NCBI GenBank assembly: GCA_029210325.1
Contig: JARGPU010000001.1
Span: forward strand, 940,126-1,004,125
Origin: Alcanivoracaceae bacterium
Lineage (GTDB): Bacteria; Pseudomonadota; Gammaproteobacteria; Pseudomonadales; Alcanivoracaceae
Direction of reading: 5' to 3'
DNA length: 64,000 bases
Each line of letters begins with the position of its first letter. Positions within the stretch are counted from its first letter, which is position 1. Positions 51,111-61,157 of this stretch are shown here, piece by piece. The position numbers and the translations under genes were made by a program. A model generated the notes under the pieces. The model saw nothing but the letters and a program-made list of their open reading frames with translations. It had not been told where the DNA came from and did no database searches.

Positions 51111-51126
51111 GTTGCATTGCCCGACG

Positions 51127-52772: not shown

Positions 52773-53045
52773 ATGGACAAGGTTAACGAAAAATCTGGCG
52801 ATTCTGTAATTCATGAAAAGGCAAATGTGTACGAACGCGAAAGCTTCCTACGTGCGAAGGATGCCTGGCAGCTGATAGGTGCCGGGAGGTCGACGTTTTA
52901 CGCCCTACAAAATCCGCAGTACAAGCAGTATGACAAAAGCTTCCCAGCGCCATACAAGATTGGGGCGCGAGCGAGAGTTTGGTCGACGGTAGAGCTGATG
53001 GCTTGGGTTGAATCGCGACCTGCGTTGCCTGAAGGGAGGGTGTAA
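52773..53045 (+). CDS. AlpA-like DNA-binding protein
   Basis: FLRAKDAWQLIGAGRSTFYALQNPQYKQYDKSFPAPYKIGARARVWSTVELMAWVESR. Confidence 0.8.
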   Translation: MDKVNEKSGDSVIHEKANVYERESFLRAKDAWQLIGAGRSTFYALQNPQYKQYDKSFPAPYKIGARARVWSTVELMAWVESRPALPEGRV

Positions 53046-53047
53046 AA

Positions 53048-54535
53048 ATGCAAAACTTTCACGATAAAAATGTGATGCTGGATCCGAGCATTGAGCAAAA
53101 GCTTCTTGCCCGATGCCCATTGGTTGGGGCAGCGGTCATGCAGAGTGAACAGTACTTCAAGGCTGATGTTAAGGTGGTTCTGCCTGCTCATATCGGCGCT
53201 ATTTCTGCAATATTAGGGCCTGTACTTAAGGTGAAGACGCCAAATCAGCAGGTTTCAAACTCTGCGCTATTTATCCTGGCAATGAGTCCGCCAGCAACAA
53301 AGAAAACGCCGATCATGGATCGTGCGTACAGGCCGATATACAGCTTCGAAAACGGTTTGAGCGAAATCAACGAGAAGGCGGAAAGAACTTACAATTCGGA
53401 GATGGCGCTGTGGAAGGCTCGCGAACGTTGTTTACGAAGAGAGGAGCGAAACTGTCCTGGTTTTCCTGGCCAAATGGAAGAAATACACCAAAAAATGGAG
53501 AGCCACTCGCGAAGTATTCCCGAAAAAATGGGGAGGAAGCAGATGCTTTTCGAGAACCTGACTGAGGCTGGGATTGTTTCGACATTGCAGGCTACAAAAG
53601 CAGCCTGCATCGCTACAAGCGAGGGAGTCAATGTAACGGGAAGTAAGACCCTTGACAGCATCGGGATGTTCAATTCATTGCACTCTGGGTCGCCGGTGAC
53701 TGTTAATCGAGGCTCTCGCGAGCCTGTTCGCGTAACTGGCGCGGCTCTCTCTATTTGTATTTTTACGCAGAATGAGATGATGTCCTCCATTCCCAAGGCG
53801 AAGAAGAAGAAGCTCCTCGATACCGGCTTTCTCCAAAGATTCCTTGTTTTCAACAACGAGCCTGATCATGGAATATATCAGGATGTCGAGAGTGGTTACG
53901 GGACGGAAGCCATGGATATTTTTGAAATGCGACTTGAGGAACTGTCGGATCTCCTTTTGTCAGCTATTTGTGATAACAATTTTGTTCAGCGCGTAGTTGG
54001 GTTCGATGCCGCTGCAACAGATTTTTGGAATGTTAAAGAAAAATCCATCAGATCTGAAATGCAGTCTGGAGGTTCTTACGAGTATGCAGCTGATCATGCG
54101 TCAAAGTTGGCGAATAATGCGGCCAGGCTTGCTTCCTTGCTTCATCTATTCGAAGGAAAAGACGGGGAAATATCCAGGGATACTTTGGAGATTTCTTTTG
54201 ATATTTGTGAACTTTGCTCGAAGGATTACATGAAGGTCTTTGCCAAAGGCCCTGAGCACGTTACTGATGCAGAGCTGCTTTTCGAAAAGCTGGAGGATTT
54301 CTATGAAATGGGGAGGTACCCCATCCCTAAGGTCATGGCACGAAGAAATGCTCCGCTGCCTTTGAGGGAGGGAAAGAGGTTCTTCAAGGCATTAAGTTAC
54401 TTGGAAAGTGAGCACAGGGTTCGTGTAGTGCAGGGTCAAGACGGTAAGCAGTACATTTTCTTTCCGGATAATCTGCCTCCGCAGTACATAGATCGGTCAC
54501 AGTTTGGTATGACATCTCTTGATCCTTTCAGATAG
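53048..54535 (+). CDS. DUF3987 (YfjI-like) protein of an integrative/satellite element
   Basis: AISAILGPVLKVKTPN...SPPATKKTPIMDRAYRPI...EGVNVTGSKTLDSIGMFNSLHSGSPVTVNR; directly downstream of AlpA-like gene. Confidence 0.75.
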   Translation: MQNFHDKNVMLDPSIEQKLLARCPLVGAAVMQSEQYFKADVKVVLPAHIGAISAILGPVLKVKTPNQQVSNSALFILAMSPPATKKTPIMDRAYRPIYSFENGLSEINEKAERTYNSEMALWKARERCLRREERNCPGFPGQMEEIHQKMESHSRSIPEKMGRKQMLFENLTEAGIVSTLQATKAACIATSEGVNVTGSKTLDSIGMFNSLHSGSPVTVNRGSREPVRVTGAALSICIFTQNEMMSSIPKAKKKKLLDTGFLQRFLVFNNEPDHGIYQDVESGYGTEAMDIFEMRLEELSDLLLSAICDNNFVQRVVGFDAAATDFWNVKEKSIRSEMQSGGSYEYAADHASKLANNAARLASLLHLFEGKDGEISRDTLEISFDICELCSKDYMKVFAKGPEHVTDAELLFEKLEDFYEMGRYPIPKVMARRNAPLPLREGKRFFKALSYLESEHRVRVVQGQDGKQYIFFPDNLPPQYIDRSQFGMTSLDPFR

Positions 54536-54549
54536 GAGTAGGAAGTCAG

Positions 54550-54579
54550 AAAGTCACGCCCATCATTGGGCGTGACTTT
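54550..54579. terminator. hairpin terminator after DUF3987 gene
   Basis: 13-bp perfect stem aaagtcacgccca-tcat-tgggcgtgacttt. Confidence 0.85.
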
Positions 54580-54585
54580 CTTATC

Positions 54586-54740: not shown

Positions 54741-54935
54741 CTAACCTACAAAGATCGGAGCTAAATCTGGTTGGGGCTGCGCCAGGCTAAGAGGCGAGAC
54801 ATACAGTTGCTTGCCATTGCAATTTTGCGGGCCAGAGGGCTTAAGCCCGTTGGTATGGAAGCGCGAGAACAGGCTGGCGGGCGTCTTGCTAGGATGCCTG
54901 ATTATAAATGGAAAGAATCCCATGGAAATCTGTAG

Positions 54936-54953
54936 GGATTCTATATAGAATCC
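54936..54953. promoter_or_regulatory. 18-bp perfect palindrome, candidate operator of the adjacent RHH protein
   Basis: ggattctatatagaatcc; additional gaatcc half-site at 54915; 31 bp upstream of RHH start. Confidence 0.6.
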
Positions 54954-54984
54954 GAAGCTGGTGTGGCTGATGCGTGCCCAAGGA

Positions 54985-55185
54985 ATGACTAAGAAAATTC
55001 AAGTCTCGTTTTCTGACAGACAAATGGCTTTAATTCAGCGCCTTAAGGGCGAGTTTGGTGCAACAGATGCCGACGTAGTCAGAGGCATTGTTTTGGCGTG
55101 GCTGGCTGAAAAGAGCTTTATTAGCACGGTGGTCAAGCAGCGAATTAACTCGGAAGCAGAGAAGAGTGCGAAAGATGAGTCCTGA
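54985..55185 (+). CDS. small putative ribbon-helix-helix regulator
   Basis: MTKKIQVSFSDRQMALIQRLKGEFGATDADVVRGIVLAWLAEKSF. Confidence 0.65.
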   Translation: MTKKIQVSFSDRQMALIQRLKGEFGATDADVVRGIVLAWLAEKSFISTVVKQRINSEAEKSAKDES

Positions 55186-56413
55186 GCGCCGCCGTTTGCC
55201 AGACATAAAGCCCCAAACGCCCATAGCCAAGCTTGATCGAGAAAAATACCTGAGTCTTGAGTATGAATTTCCGGTTGAGGCCGTGTCAAGAGTTGTGGGC
55301 ATGTCGTCCTCTTTCATACGCAAGGTGTGTGGAAAAAAAGGCCGCCTATCAGTAGTGGACGTTCTTCTCCTGCTTGATCAGGACGCTTTTTCTGAAACTT
55401 TTGTTCCTAGAAGCCGTGTGATTGATTATTTGCTAAGTAAAAAGAATCTTGATTTAGAAACCACTGTAAATAATACACCAAAATTTCTTCAAGCATACGA
55501 TGAAAAAATTTCTCTTCTCCATGGAAATGCCTTGGACATAGTTGCCAATTTGCCACATAAGTCCATTCAGTGTGTTGTGACTTCTACTCCCTACTGGGGG
55601 CTTCGAATATATAAGAATTCTCATTTTGTTAGATGGGCAGATGGAGAGGAATGTCCATACGGACATGAGCAGACTCCGGACGGCTTTGTGCGGCATACTA
55701 GTCAAATCCTTGAAGCCCTATTTGAGGTGGTCGCAGACGACGGGTCGATCTGGTGGAATGTAATGGATACTTTCAACACCCGCACACAAATTAGAGATAA
55801 TGCAGCAGAGGCACTTCGTGCCATGCAGGGAAAAGACGGTCGCAAGTGGAGTGAGCACGAGTGCCGGCGCTATAGCGCCGGCCATGCATACTTAAAAGAT
55901 GGGGAGCAATGTTTGATTCCTGGGCTCATCGCAGAAAGAGCATCCAGAATGGGTTTCTATGTGAAGTCTGTAATCACTTGGGCCAAAACCAGTTCATTGC
56001 CCGAGCCTCAGAACTCTAGAGTTAGTAGAAACCTAGAATACATTCTTCACCTGAGTAAAAGTAGAGCGCCAAAATTTGACAAGAGTGCCTACCGATCGCT
56101 GCCTGCCTCTGCAGGAGGGCGAAGCGGCCCTGGCGAACCGGACAAGCTATCTGATGTCTGGATGCTGCCAACGTCATCCGGGCGCGATGGCCATGGAGCC
56201 CAATTCCCAGTGGCTTTGCCGGCACGATGTATAGCTGTGTCCACTGGTCCGGGCGATACAGTTCTGGATCCCTTTGTTGGATCCGGAAATGCTGGCGTTG
56301 CTGCCAAACTACTTGGTTGTCGTTTTATAGGAATTGATATTAATAAGGATTATCTTTCCCTGGCAAATCGACGCATCGGAAAGGTGCTAGAGCCCGTCCA
56401 GAGTAGAACTTAA
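55175..56413 (+). CDS. DNA methyltransferase (beta-class N4-cytosine/N6-adenine type)
   Basis: Catalytic TSTPYWGLR (TSPPYW-like) and SAM-binding DPFVGSGNAGVAAKLLGCRFIGIDI in beta order; overlaps RHH gene. Confidence 0.87.
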   Translation: MSPERRRLPDIKPQTPIAKLDREKYLSLEYEFPVEAVSRVVGMSSSFIRKVCGKKGRLSVVDVLLLLDQDAFSETFVPRSRVIDYLLSKKNLDLETTVNNTPKFLQAYDEKISLLHGNALDIVANLPHKSIQCVVTSTPYWGLRIYKNSHFVRWADGEECPYGHEQTPDGFVRHTSQILEALFEVVADDGSIWWNVMDTFNTRTQIRDNAAEALRAMQGKDGRKWSEHECRRYSAGHAYLKDGEQCLIPGLIAERASRMGFYVKSVITWAKTSSLPEPQNSRVSRNLEYILHLSKSRAPKFDKSAYRSLPASAGGRSGPGEPDKLSDVWMLPTSSGRDGHGAQFPVALPARCIAVSTGPGDTVLDPFVGSGNAGVAAKLLGCRFIGIDINKDYLSLANRRIGKVLEPVQSRT

Positions 56414-56416
56414 GCG

Positions 56417-57604
56417 TCAGGCCAATGTTGAAAGAAACTCTTCGACAACGTCTAAGTTGTGCATCGGCAACAGCGCTTCAATAACTATCACTCTATCCGG
56501 AGTAATGTACTCGCGAACAATAGGGAGTTCTCCATCAAATAATGGGGCGAGAATCACTCCCTTTGTAAGATTATTAGCAGAAAGATATGCGTGCATTTGA
56601 TAATGATCAGAGGCGCTGGGAATCTTGTACTTTGCGTCTGCTATCAATTGAATTTGGCCATTTCTCTCAATTACGATATCGGGGCTCAATTCAAAACTAC
56701 CGTCAGTATATAAAGTCGACTTTGCGCTGCCGCCCTTCACAACTAGATAGCCTTTATTGTTATAGAGGTCCCTCAGCACATTTCGTAGATATCTCTCAAA
56801 AACATCTGCTGTATTGAATAAAATGGCGTCCCCGAGAACTGATTTTCCGTTGCCGATCCCGATCCCGTTAACGCCCAATATGACTAGTGATAACATTAAG
56901 GCCTTTTTATAGTAATCCCTTGCGCCACCATATTTTCCTCGAGAAAATCTCTCCTCTATATGAGTGGCATCCGCGCCGATGTCATCCGGTCTCGGGAACC
57001 TTCCGGTCCATCTGTCTACAACAGACTGATACTCCCTATCGGTGCCCTTTTGGAAAAGTAGCGCGCCCGCCTTTTTTAGGGCTTCGCTAATAATGCGGTT
57101 CTCGGGAATGTCTGTTGTCCTTTCTTTGACTTTATAGACAACGGGCTCTTCTCGGCAACACGCAACATTCATCGCTGTTTCGACCACATTCACATCGCCA
57201 CGTGCAAAAAGGCCTCGTCTACGCTTTGATACTCTTTCCTGAAGGGGGCTTTTTCGCATGATTTCGTCTGCAGCCACAAGTAAACTCCGCGCGACCACAT
57301 GCTCGATACTTGCCTCGTCTTCAACTGAGTACTCTACAAATTGCTCGTATATTCTTTCCAGTTCATCTTGGTGTCCATCTGCTTTTAGAAGCAGCCTGAA
57401 GAAGTTTAGCTTCCCTATCTTCGGAATTATCTGAAGGGTCTTGCCATTCGCAAGAGGCACTGAGCCAGCAACATTGACTGCCTCAATCCCTAGCTCGTCT
57501 CGTCGTAAATGAACTCTAATCATTCTTGACAAATTGGAGGGTAGGTCTTCTGGTTTAAGGCCAGAAAACCAAGTTAGCGTTCCTTCAATGGCCTGTAGGG
57601 TCAT
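56417..57604 (-). CDS. McrC-family restriction nuclease subunit
   Basis: PD-(D/E)xK segment ELSPDIVIERNGQIQLIADAKYK; VFERYLRNVLRDLYNN; adjacent to McrB-like gene with 4-nt overlap. Confidence 0.82.
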   Translation of the reverse strand: MTLQAIEGTLTWFSGLKPEDLPSNLSRMIRVHLRRDELGIEAVNVAGSVPLANGKTLQIIPKIGKLNFFRLLLKADGHQDELERIYEQFVEYSVEDEASIEHVVARSLLVAADEIMRKSPLQERVSKRRRGLFARGDVNVVETAMNVACCREEPVVYKVKERTTDIPENRIISEALKKAGALLFQKGTDREYQSVVDRWTGRFPRPDDIGADATHIEERFSRGKYGGARDYYKKALMLSLVILGVNGIGIGNGKSVLGDAILFNTADVFERYLRNVLRDLYNNKGYLVVKGGSAKSTLYTDGSFELSPDIVIERNGQIQLIADAKYKIPSASDHYQMHAYLSANNLTKGVILAPLFDGELPIVREYITPDRVIVIEALLPMHNLDVVEEFLSTLA

Positions 57605-59139
57605 TGGTCACCAAAAAGATGGTCGGCCAAATTATCTATAGTCTCCAGGTCGGGGCGTCTGAGCGGGCCAAGAAAGTTATTCAGCACGGGTCTGATTCTT
57701 GTTTTATAGAAGAATAGAAAGTCCGCGTTATTTGCTTCATCAGGAAGGCCGGAAAAATACGCATGACCAAGAGGATAAATTGACTGTATTTCAGCAAAGA
57801 CTTGACGAATCTTATCTCGATTTTGCGGCGTAATATTTTTAAGAGATAAAATGGTAGCTAAGTCTTCTACGCGCGGGGGGAACTCGACCCCGGCCATGCG
57901 CCCCAGTAACGCGTCATCAACCTCTTCTGTAGATTTGTCAATTGTATTCATGGTTAAAAGAAAAACAGTTTCCTTTGATATGCTAAAAAGTTCGCTGCTC
58001 CTCAGTTCAATTTCGTTGCTATCGCCGCGGTATCCTTCCTCAATTAGAGAAAAGACTTCGCCTAAAGCCTGAGAAATATTGGTTCTGTTGGCTTCCTCCA
58101 AGACAATATACTTTTTCTGCTCTTTGATCGCTCTCTTCAGTGGGCCGTCTTTCCAAACCCAAGAGCCGTCTGGCTCGGGCTTCAGGCCTTCTATGAGATG
58201 GTCGTAGCCCCAGCCATCATGAATCTGTATCGTCACCCTCTCATCAGAGTCACGGGGAACAAGGCTATCTATAACCCATGTTTTACTTGTTCGAGGAGGG
58301 CCATATAGAAGAATCGCTCCTGCCCCCTCTTCTATCAATCTACGAAGGTCCTCTCGGGGATCTGATCTTATCCAGTGGGGATTATCAAGCCCTGAAACCA
58401 TTCCTTTAACCCTCCTTACATAAGACTTGAAGTCGATTCTTGTCGGCGTGTTTACAGCAGCTTGATCTCCATCAGCAAATGGCTTGCATATTGAGAAAAG
58501 CTCTCGATCGGTTAGTGGCTTACTTTTGAGACCTATAGAGAGATCATCGTCTACGAATATGACAGCCTTCTCTTCGGAAGATATATGTAGCTCTTTCAGC
58601 ATATTCTCAACAAGATAGAGCTTAGGCTGCTTACTATCGGGAATTTTTGTTTGGCGCGCATACCATACAGAAAATGCCGTTATGGGAATGGAAACCACGC
58701 TTTCTTGATCTAGGGCAAAGCCAGACTCCCCGAAACCAAGACCAAGTGGATATTTTCTTCCTGGCTTTACATAGAGCTTGCGACCATCTTCTGAACGAGA
58801 AAAGTCAAGGTAGCTTGTGGGGTCGCAAGTAACTACAGAACCACTAGAGGCCCATCGCTGAATGTTGGTCTGCACAATAGAGCGAGCAGCATCATGCTTC
58901 ATATTCGTCCAGCGAGGCTTGTGAGCAAAAGGAACGAAGAAAGAATGATCCGGCGAGCCGCAGGAAAACAGTCGAATTAGGGAGGGCTCAGAGTTTGCTG
59001 TATCTATTTCAACTGGAGCGCGTCCTACAGCTAGACCCATGTGCTTAAGGGCGAACCAGATCTTTAATAGGTGACCGGCTGTACCATATAGTTCGTTTAA
59101 GGCTTGCTTGAGGGTGGCACCATCGATGTACATTCGCAC
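57601..59139 (-). CDS. McrB-like AAA+ NTPase with unusual N-terminal domain
   Basis: P-loop-like GAILLYGPPRTSKTWV, Walker B-like YIVLEEANRTN, McrB-type MNTIDKS. Confidence 0.82.
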   Translation of the reverse strand: MRMYIDGATLKQALNELYGTAGHLLKIWFALKHMGLAVGRAPVEIDTANSEPSLIRLFSCGSPDHSFFVPFAHKPRWTNMKHDAARSIVQTNIQRWASSGSVVTCDPTSYLDFSRSEDGRKLYVKPGRKYPLGLGFGESGFALDQESVVSIPITAFSVWYARQTKIPDSKQPKLYLVENMLKELHISSEEKAVIFVDDDLSIGLKSKPLTDRELFSICKPFADGDQAAVNTPTRIDFKSYVRRVKGMVSGLDNPHWIRSDPREDLRRLIEEGAGAILLYGPPRTSKTWVIDSLVPRDSDERVTIQIHDGWGYDHLIEGLKPEPDGSWVWKDGPLKRAIKEQKKYIVLEEANRTNISQALGEVFSLIEEGYRGDSNEIELRSSELFSISKETVFLLTMNTIDKSTEEVDDALLGRMAGVEFPPRVEDLATILSLKNITPQNRDKIRQVFAEIQSIYPLGHAYFSGLPDEANNADFLFFYKTRIRPVLNNFLGPLRRPDLETIDNLADHLFGDQ

Positions 59140-60494: not shown

Positions 60495-61157
60495 ATGAAC
60501 AACATCATCGATAGTAAACTCATATACGGATCAAACTGGAACGGATACCGAATACTGGATCAATATTCACCCTTCATAGAAAACTACCTCTACAGAAACC
60601 TCCTGACGATAGAGCATGCAACAAATCAATACCCTCGGGTATTTGCAATCAGGGTGGACCTGCATCTACCACCCGGATATGACGAGACCGATACAGCGGT
60701 GATCAGTCGGTTCTTTGATTCAATGAACAGCCAGATCTATGAAGACTATGTCCGCCAGGCTCGCCGTGGCGTGTATCTGAACAGCTGTCGCCTCAGGTAT
60801 GTATGGGCCAAGGAGCGTGGCCCAGAGAATGGCAATATCCATTACCACGTTTGCTTGATCCTGAATCACAAGCGGTATGCAGCATTGGGTCGGTATGTTC
60901 ATAGCGACCTGATTGACTGGAATGAGGCGCAGCGCAATATGGCGCATCGGATTAGCAAGGCCTGGTATTCCGCTACCCAAGGGATGGCCTATCCCGGTCT
61001 GGTTCACTTTGCAGACAATGCGGGCTATGAGCTAAACCGTAATAGCCCGGATTTCCATATGCAGAAGGCGGAGCTGTTCAAGCGCCTAAGCTACTTAGCT
61101 AAGGTGTGGACCAAGGAAGCGATTGAAGGCCGGCGGTATGGGAGTAGCCGGGGTTGA
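60495..61157 (+). CDS. inovirus Gp2/YagK-YfjJ-like protein
   Basis: RVDLHLPPGYDETD...GNIHYHVCLILNHKRYAALG...RISKAWYSATQG...FKRLSYLAKVWTKE. Confidence 0.75.
   Translation: MNNIIDSKLIYGSNWNGYRILDQYSPFIENYLYRNLLTIEHATNQYPRVFAIRVDLHLPPGYDETDTAVISRFFDSMNSQIYEDYVRQARRGVYLNSCRLRYVWAKERGPENGNIHYHVCLILNHKRYAALGRYVHSDLIDWNEAQRNMAHRISKAWYSATQGMAYPGLVHFADNAGYELNRNSPDFHMQKAELFKRLSYLAKVWTKEAIEGRRYGSSRG

Follow-up and report, generated by a model that had tools for sequence, protein, structure and literature searches.

A putative McrBC-like restriction-modification cassette combining an N4-cytosine-type methyltransferase with an RHH-type regulator in an Alcanivoracaceae bacterium

We describe a compact four-gene cassette in a 64,000-nt stretch of the genome of an Alcanivoracaceae bacterium (contig JARGPU010000001.1; the whole stretch is referred to as the window, coordinates are positions within it, and + and - denote the strand). 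The cassette encodes a small ribbon-helix-helix (RHH)-type regulator, a beta-class amino-DNA methyltransferase (MTase), and a pair of McrB-like and McrC-like proteins. Its gene content and the comparison with related loci make it likely that the cassette is a self-contained restriction-modification (R-M) system of the LlaJI/PcaRCI kind, which would restrict unmodified DNA. There are precedents for R-M systems whose McrBC-like nucleases act on unmodified DNA, and a location of McrB genes close to methylases is reported to be common; what seems to be new is the combination of an N4-cytosine (N4C)-type MTase, an RHH regulator and a DNA-reading domain without known relatives.

The genes form two convergent operons, namely RHH-MTase (+) and McrB-McrC (-), with 3 bp separating their stops (56413/56417). 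The RHH gene overlaps the start of the MTase gene (ATG 55175) by 11 bp, and the McrB and McrC genes overlap in the sequence ATGA. All four open reading frames lie at the positions first noted from the sequence, and coordinates and motifs confirm the original prediction, made from this DNA before any database search, of an RHH-like gene overlapping a beta-class MTase gene that ends close to the stop of a convergent McrC-McrB pair. The same prediction treated the four genes as one system, and their conservation as a unit is supported by a second locus (L021, in the metagenome-assembled genome BC.035). In L021 all four genes recur with unchanged order and orientation, and the overlaps and the tail-to-tail junction are kept. 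Identities are 64% (RHH), 66% (MTase), 41% (McrC) and 54% (McrB), and the background is unrelated, with genes that, by their sequences alone, resemble ParA, RadC and recombinases. Close relatives of the MTase are found in a handful of places only, L021 among them, in the 2.9 million viral contigs and the GTDB species genomes searched. The MTase family occurs in 1 of 399 sampled genomes of the phylum and, in samples from outside it, in 1 of 395 and 1 of 291 (every time a genome already known), and in its own taxonomic family 1 of 46 sampled genomes has it at strong similarity. The McrB-like protein alone, or a two-sequence alignment of it, retrieved no relative in the viral-contig scans, and McrB with this reader turned up in two loci only, the window and L021. 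Given this rarity of both components, chance co-occurrence of the MTase and the reader-bearing McrB is implausible.

The MTase matches PF01555 (N6_N4 MTase) and is not of the 5-methylcytosine (5mC, C5) type of LlaJI and PcaRCI. Motif IV (TSTPYW) precedes motif I (DPFVGSG), which is the beta order. Motif IV has the form [TS]S(P/T)PY rather than DPPY, as it does (TSPPYW) in the phage-like contig L053 and in XcyI-type MTases, and the product is probably N4-methylcytosine (N4mC). The central segment 201-256, presumed to be the target-recognition part, is the best-conserved part of the protein in all six comparisons (71-93%, with 93% at the top). An N-terminal extension of ~110 aa (55175-55504; pattern VVGMSxxFIRKV...LSxxDVLxLLDQDAF) is kept in all seven relatives; it resembles a helix-turn-helix domain and might possibly serve autoregulation. 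The nearest well-populated MTase relatives, from XcyI-family type II R-M systems (e.g., that of plasmid pRA2), are ~33% identical and differ in lacking this extension and most of segment 201-256, and in having an XcyI-family type II nuclease as the partner.

In the McrC-like protein (PF10117), the PD-(D/E)xK site is intact (PD309...D323-A-K325, PDIVIERNGQIQLIADAK). The McrB-like protein matches solved McrB proteins (6ut3 at 7.6e-17 and 6hz4 at 4.7e-14; 6e-21 with a two-sequence profile) and contains the Walker A motif GPPRTSKT and the NxxD signature MNTIDK. There are two candidate starts, GTG 59139 and ATG 59133, and the Shine-Dalgarno-like AGAAGGTG favours the second. Judged from their sequences, the catalytic motifs of the MTase, McrC-like and McrB-like proteins are intact. 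PADLOC models recognise the MTase and weakly match the McrB half (E = 0.0056), and no PADLOC model matches the McrC half. The condition of the catalytic motifs bears on the possibility of a non-restricting module for regulation or plasmid maintenance, where the MTase and RHH protein would control expression or stability and McrBC would be degenerate. Such a module would fit the RHH regulators typical of toxin-antitoxin and plasmid loci, as well as the S that replaces G in Walker A of the window copy, but the nuclease and the AAA domain have preserved their catalytic motifs, Walker A reads GPPRTGKT in L021, and an R-M system would bring an addiction effect anyway. We regard this explanation as most improbable.

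The part of the cassette without known relatives is the N-terminus of the McrB-like protein. Its 262 aa gave no significant Pfam match by profile search (best RecR_C, 0.18) and nothing better than E = 1.3 against the PDB by sequence. Methyl-reading domains (DUF3578, EVE/YTH, PUA, SRA-like) were not matched in these sequence comparisons with Pfam and the PDB, nor was the B3 domain, the LlaJI-type reader; the expectation that this N-terminus is not a known methyl-reader thus holds. AlphaFold models of the full McrB (4 sequences) reached a mean predicted local distance difference test score (pLDDT) of 48, too poor for fold comparison. Between the window and L021, residues 1-145 are 58.7% and the motor 58.2% identical, compared with 38.5% for the linker and 41.1% for McrC. 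The linker pattern recurs weakly in other McrB-like proteins linked to MTases. The presumed reader and MTase segment 201-256 stay constant while other parts drift, a pattern that would be expected of an MTase and a reader tied to one site.

The N4C methylase M.PvuII, the product of which is a target of E. coli McrBC, kills cells that have classical McrBC (PMC2614495), which makes modification-dependent reading by the window McrB unlikely. The lethality provides experimental backing for the earlier argument that an N4C MTase beside a classical McrBC would be self-destructive, and this argument stands provided that the MTase makes N4mC, as motif IV suggests. It also weighs against the view that, within a defence-rich island, chance has placed a classical type IV, modification-dependent McrBC next to a methylase that is unrelated to it or an orphan. 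That view is in line with the classical modification dependence of McrBC and with a genome-specific neighbourhood (beyond 51113, synteny with a congener is lost) that contains the mobile-element genes AlpA, DUF3987 and YagK/YfjJ; it has to contend, besides the lethality, with the finding that the sequence searches matched no known methyl-reader domain and with L021, which retains the four genes together with their overlaps and convergent arrangement, and we consider it improbable. In another alternative, a two-layer defence, McrBC would be modification-dependent but blind to N4mC in this context, so that the MTase would hide host DNA from another nuclease while McrBC attacks other modified phage DNA. 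Some loci do combine R-M-like and type IV activities, e.g., BREX with type IV (PMC8565348), but a two-layer defence would explain neither why the reader is conserved along with the MTase recognition segment nor why motors are exchanged beside the same MTase (see below), and we find it quite improbable.

An R-M system acting on unmodified DNA therefore remains our favoured interpretation, and four points weigh against it: 1) AlphaFold models of the N-terminal 262 residues alone (2 sequences) reach a pLDDT of only 37; 2) the assignment as N4C rather than N6-adenine MTase comes from motif IV; 3) a single further complete copy of the cassette, L021, was found; and 4) a common origin of the window reader with the readers of the related loci L017, L020 and L052 is only suggested by sequence (hhalign score 23.5, compared with 14.3 +/- 2.5 and a maximum of 20.5 for shuffled sequences) and we do not claim it.

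The RHH gene most likely starts at ATG 54985, judging from the L021 homologue, which begins at the equivalent residue. The window copy has no significant Pfam match and the L021 homologue matches RHH_1 at E = 0.012, short of the curated cut-off; the label RHH is based on this match and on the sequence pattern. Its product is the presumed controller of the MTase operon. Upstream of the gene, among GATTC/GAATC repeats, a 16-bp block (AATCTGTAGGGATTCT) is identical to L021 at 15 of 16 positions, which exceeds all 300 dinucleotide shuffles (maximum 14). The block runs into a perfect 18-bp palindrome (GGATTCTATATAGAATCC), which starts exactly at the left limit given earlier for the region (54936) and of which no copy was found upstream of mcrB in a search allowing 3 mismatches. 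The block fits a candidate RHH operator (Table 1).

Table 1. Features of the cassette in the window
Feature	Positions	Strand	Evidence
Candidate RHH operator: block AATCTGTAGGGATTCT (54927-54942) running into palindrome GGATTCTATATAGAATCC (54936-54953)	54927..54953	+	15/16 kept in L021
RHH-type small regulator, 66 aa	54985..55185	+	64% identical to L021 copy; L021 copy RHH_1 E = 0.012
Beta-class amino-DNA MTase, N4-cytosine type by motif IV TSTPYW	55175..56413	+	PF01555 1e-40
McrC-like nuclease, DUF2357 + PD-(D/E)xK	56417..57604	-	PF10117 6e-29
McrB-like AAA+ protein, NxxD branch, predicted GTPase, unique N-terminal domain	57601..59139	-	AAA_5 1e-16
Presumed DNA-reading part of McrB-like protein, residues 1-145	58705..59139	-	59% identical in L021
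McrB-like linker subdomain, residues 146-262	58354..58704	-	pattern IPxxAFxVWYxRxxxxP...ISxxExxxIFxxDxL

We propose the following mechanism. The MTase would methylate, probably at N4 of cytosine, one specific site in the host DNA, and the N-terminal domain of the McrB-like protein would bind the same site only if it is unmodified. McrB and the McrC-like nuclease would then assemble into a motor driven by nucleoside triphosphate (GTP by homology) that cleaves incoming DNA lacking protection. By binding the GATTC-type repeats in the promoter of its own gene, the RHH protein would time expression of the RHH-MTase operon such that protection comes first, while the restriction operon would be transcribed separately, from the opposite end.

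The cassette can be compared with several known systems. LlaJI, from the Lactococcus plasmid pNP40, likewise has dedicated methylation, a PD-(D/E)xK partner and a subunit that joins an McrB-like GTPase domain to a DNA-binding N-terminus of its own; LlaJI.R1 uses this N-terminus to bind the unmethylated site, and cleavage is predicted to be the task of R2 (PMC1459862). LlaJI restricts unmethylated DNA in vivo according to the same source, and the window cassette is proposed to act on unmethylated DNA as well. In this account LlaJI has two 5mC MTases, an asymmetric site and one operon, in contrast to one beta-class amino-MTase and convergent operons in the window. The reader of LlaJI.R1 is a B3 domain (PMC12707154) and no RHH gene appears in the part of the LlaJI description used, while the window has an RHH gene and a reader without detectable relatives. 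PcaRCI of Pectobacterium, thought to be mobile, resembles the window cassette in combining a single MTase with an McrB/McrC-like enzyme, which acts on unmethylated DNA, and in having an N-terminal reader unrelated to McrB (PMC8989522). Its Dcm-like MTase is of the 5mC type (CCNGG) and that of the window is N4C-like; the McrC homologue of PcaRCI is McrC-like in the nuclease domain only and has large extensions, whereas the window McrC is of the full DUF2357 type. A dedicated MTase is genetically coupled to McrBC-like genes in the window, as in these two systems, and the coupling is kept in L021. E. coli McrBC (type IV) has a homologous motor, i.e., an AAA+ GTPase with the McrC nuclease, but it has a methyl-reading N-terminal domain and no cognate MTase, unlike the window with its dedicated MTase and a reader that matches no known methyl-reader by sequence. 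A census found McrB GTPases prevalently associated with DNA MTases, with details announced for another paper (PMC11090510); the resulting clade resembles the window, compared by description only, in that an NxxD McrB GTPase lies beside a predicted DNA MTase, and the portion of the census used here gives no MTase class, site or reader for the type. With LlaJI and PcaRCI established, the original prediction of an undescribed GTP-dependent R-M system was overstated with respect to the principle; the novelty lies in the RHH gene, the reader domain and the class to which the MTase belongs. The literature searched, the coverage of which was incomplete, yielded no description of a branch that joins an N4C-type MTase to RHH and this reader, nor of a single methylase beside which motors are exchanged.

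Relatives of the MTase also occur with other partners. In L020 (Cellulomonas) and L052 (a provirus contig), an MTase 61-63% identical to that of the window lies tail-to-tail (16 and 7 bp, respectively) with a different AAA+ and PD-(D/E)xK pair, the nuclease of which has no PF10117 match. In L017, a Rhodococcus fascians plasmid, the MTase is head-to-head with yet another AAA+/PD-(D/E)xK pair. The AAA+ proteins of L017 and L020 share a homologous N-terminal domain (29% over 209 aa, 2e-11), while comparison of their AAA parts revealed no similarity. Two phage-like contigs carry the MTase beside portal and head protease genes (L053) or endolysin genes (L019), with no partner gene in the flanks examined; lone copies in phage contigs are expected if the mark protects DNA against restriction. 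As a tentative extension, these loci may represent a modular R-M class, in which a rare fixed-site N4C-type MTase is combined with interchangeable motor-nucleases (McrBC in the window and L021, other AAA+/PD-(D/E)xK pairs in L020/L052 and L017) and a new reader family would be aimed at the same unmodified site, with phages answering by an orphan MTase.

Few McrBC-based systems known so far restrict unmodified DNA, and the cassette would extend them by a branch that has an N4C-type amino-methylase and a reader domain without detectable relatives. Should the reader bind the MTase site in its unmodified state, the same motor would be used in restriction that depends on modification and in restriction that modification blocks, and the N-terminal domain alone would decide between the two. 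One methylase found with several motors provides a natural experiment on the coupling of AAA+ motors to site readers.

Several further observations concern other loci and the surroundings of the cassette. Downstream of the AAA+/nuclease pair in L017, a DUF3644 protein (L017:3487-4578) possibly belongs to that restriction module. In the plasmid loci L088, L090 and L091, McrB-like/AAA+ genes adjoin 5mC or N6 methylases. L088 (L088:1525-7470, Staphylococcus epidermidis) encodes a 5mC methylase, an McrB-like protein with a linker resembling that of the window (FLNLSDNELQELFHDD) and a PF10117 McrC, and is likely another methylase-guarded McrBC, interrupted by an IS1182-type element. In the window, synteny with the congener G789 (93.6% DNA identity in the region of a nitroreductase gene) stops at 51113 and nothing downstream aligned, so that the cassette lies in a genome-specific region; the right border was not found in the empty-site comparison with this congener. 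Directly upstream of the cassette (52773-54535) are an AlpA-like excisionase/regulator gene (PF05930) and then a gene for a DUF3987 helicase-like protein, and a YagK/YfjJ-domain gene is located at 60495-61157. These three genes may be components of a P4-like or satellite element, and there is no integrase among the window open reading frames inspected. Just after the DUF3987 gene, a perfect 15-bp inverted repeat with a 4-nt loop (AGAAAGTCACGCCCA / TGGGCGTGACTTTCT, 54548-54581) probably acts as a terminator between that gene and the RHH-MTase operon. Further downstream on the same contig, beyond the window, a 3502-aa protein with apparent cadherin-like and RHS-type repeats is encoded (L102:2263-12771).

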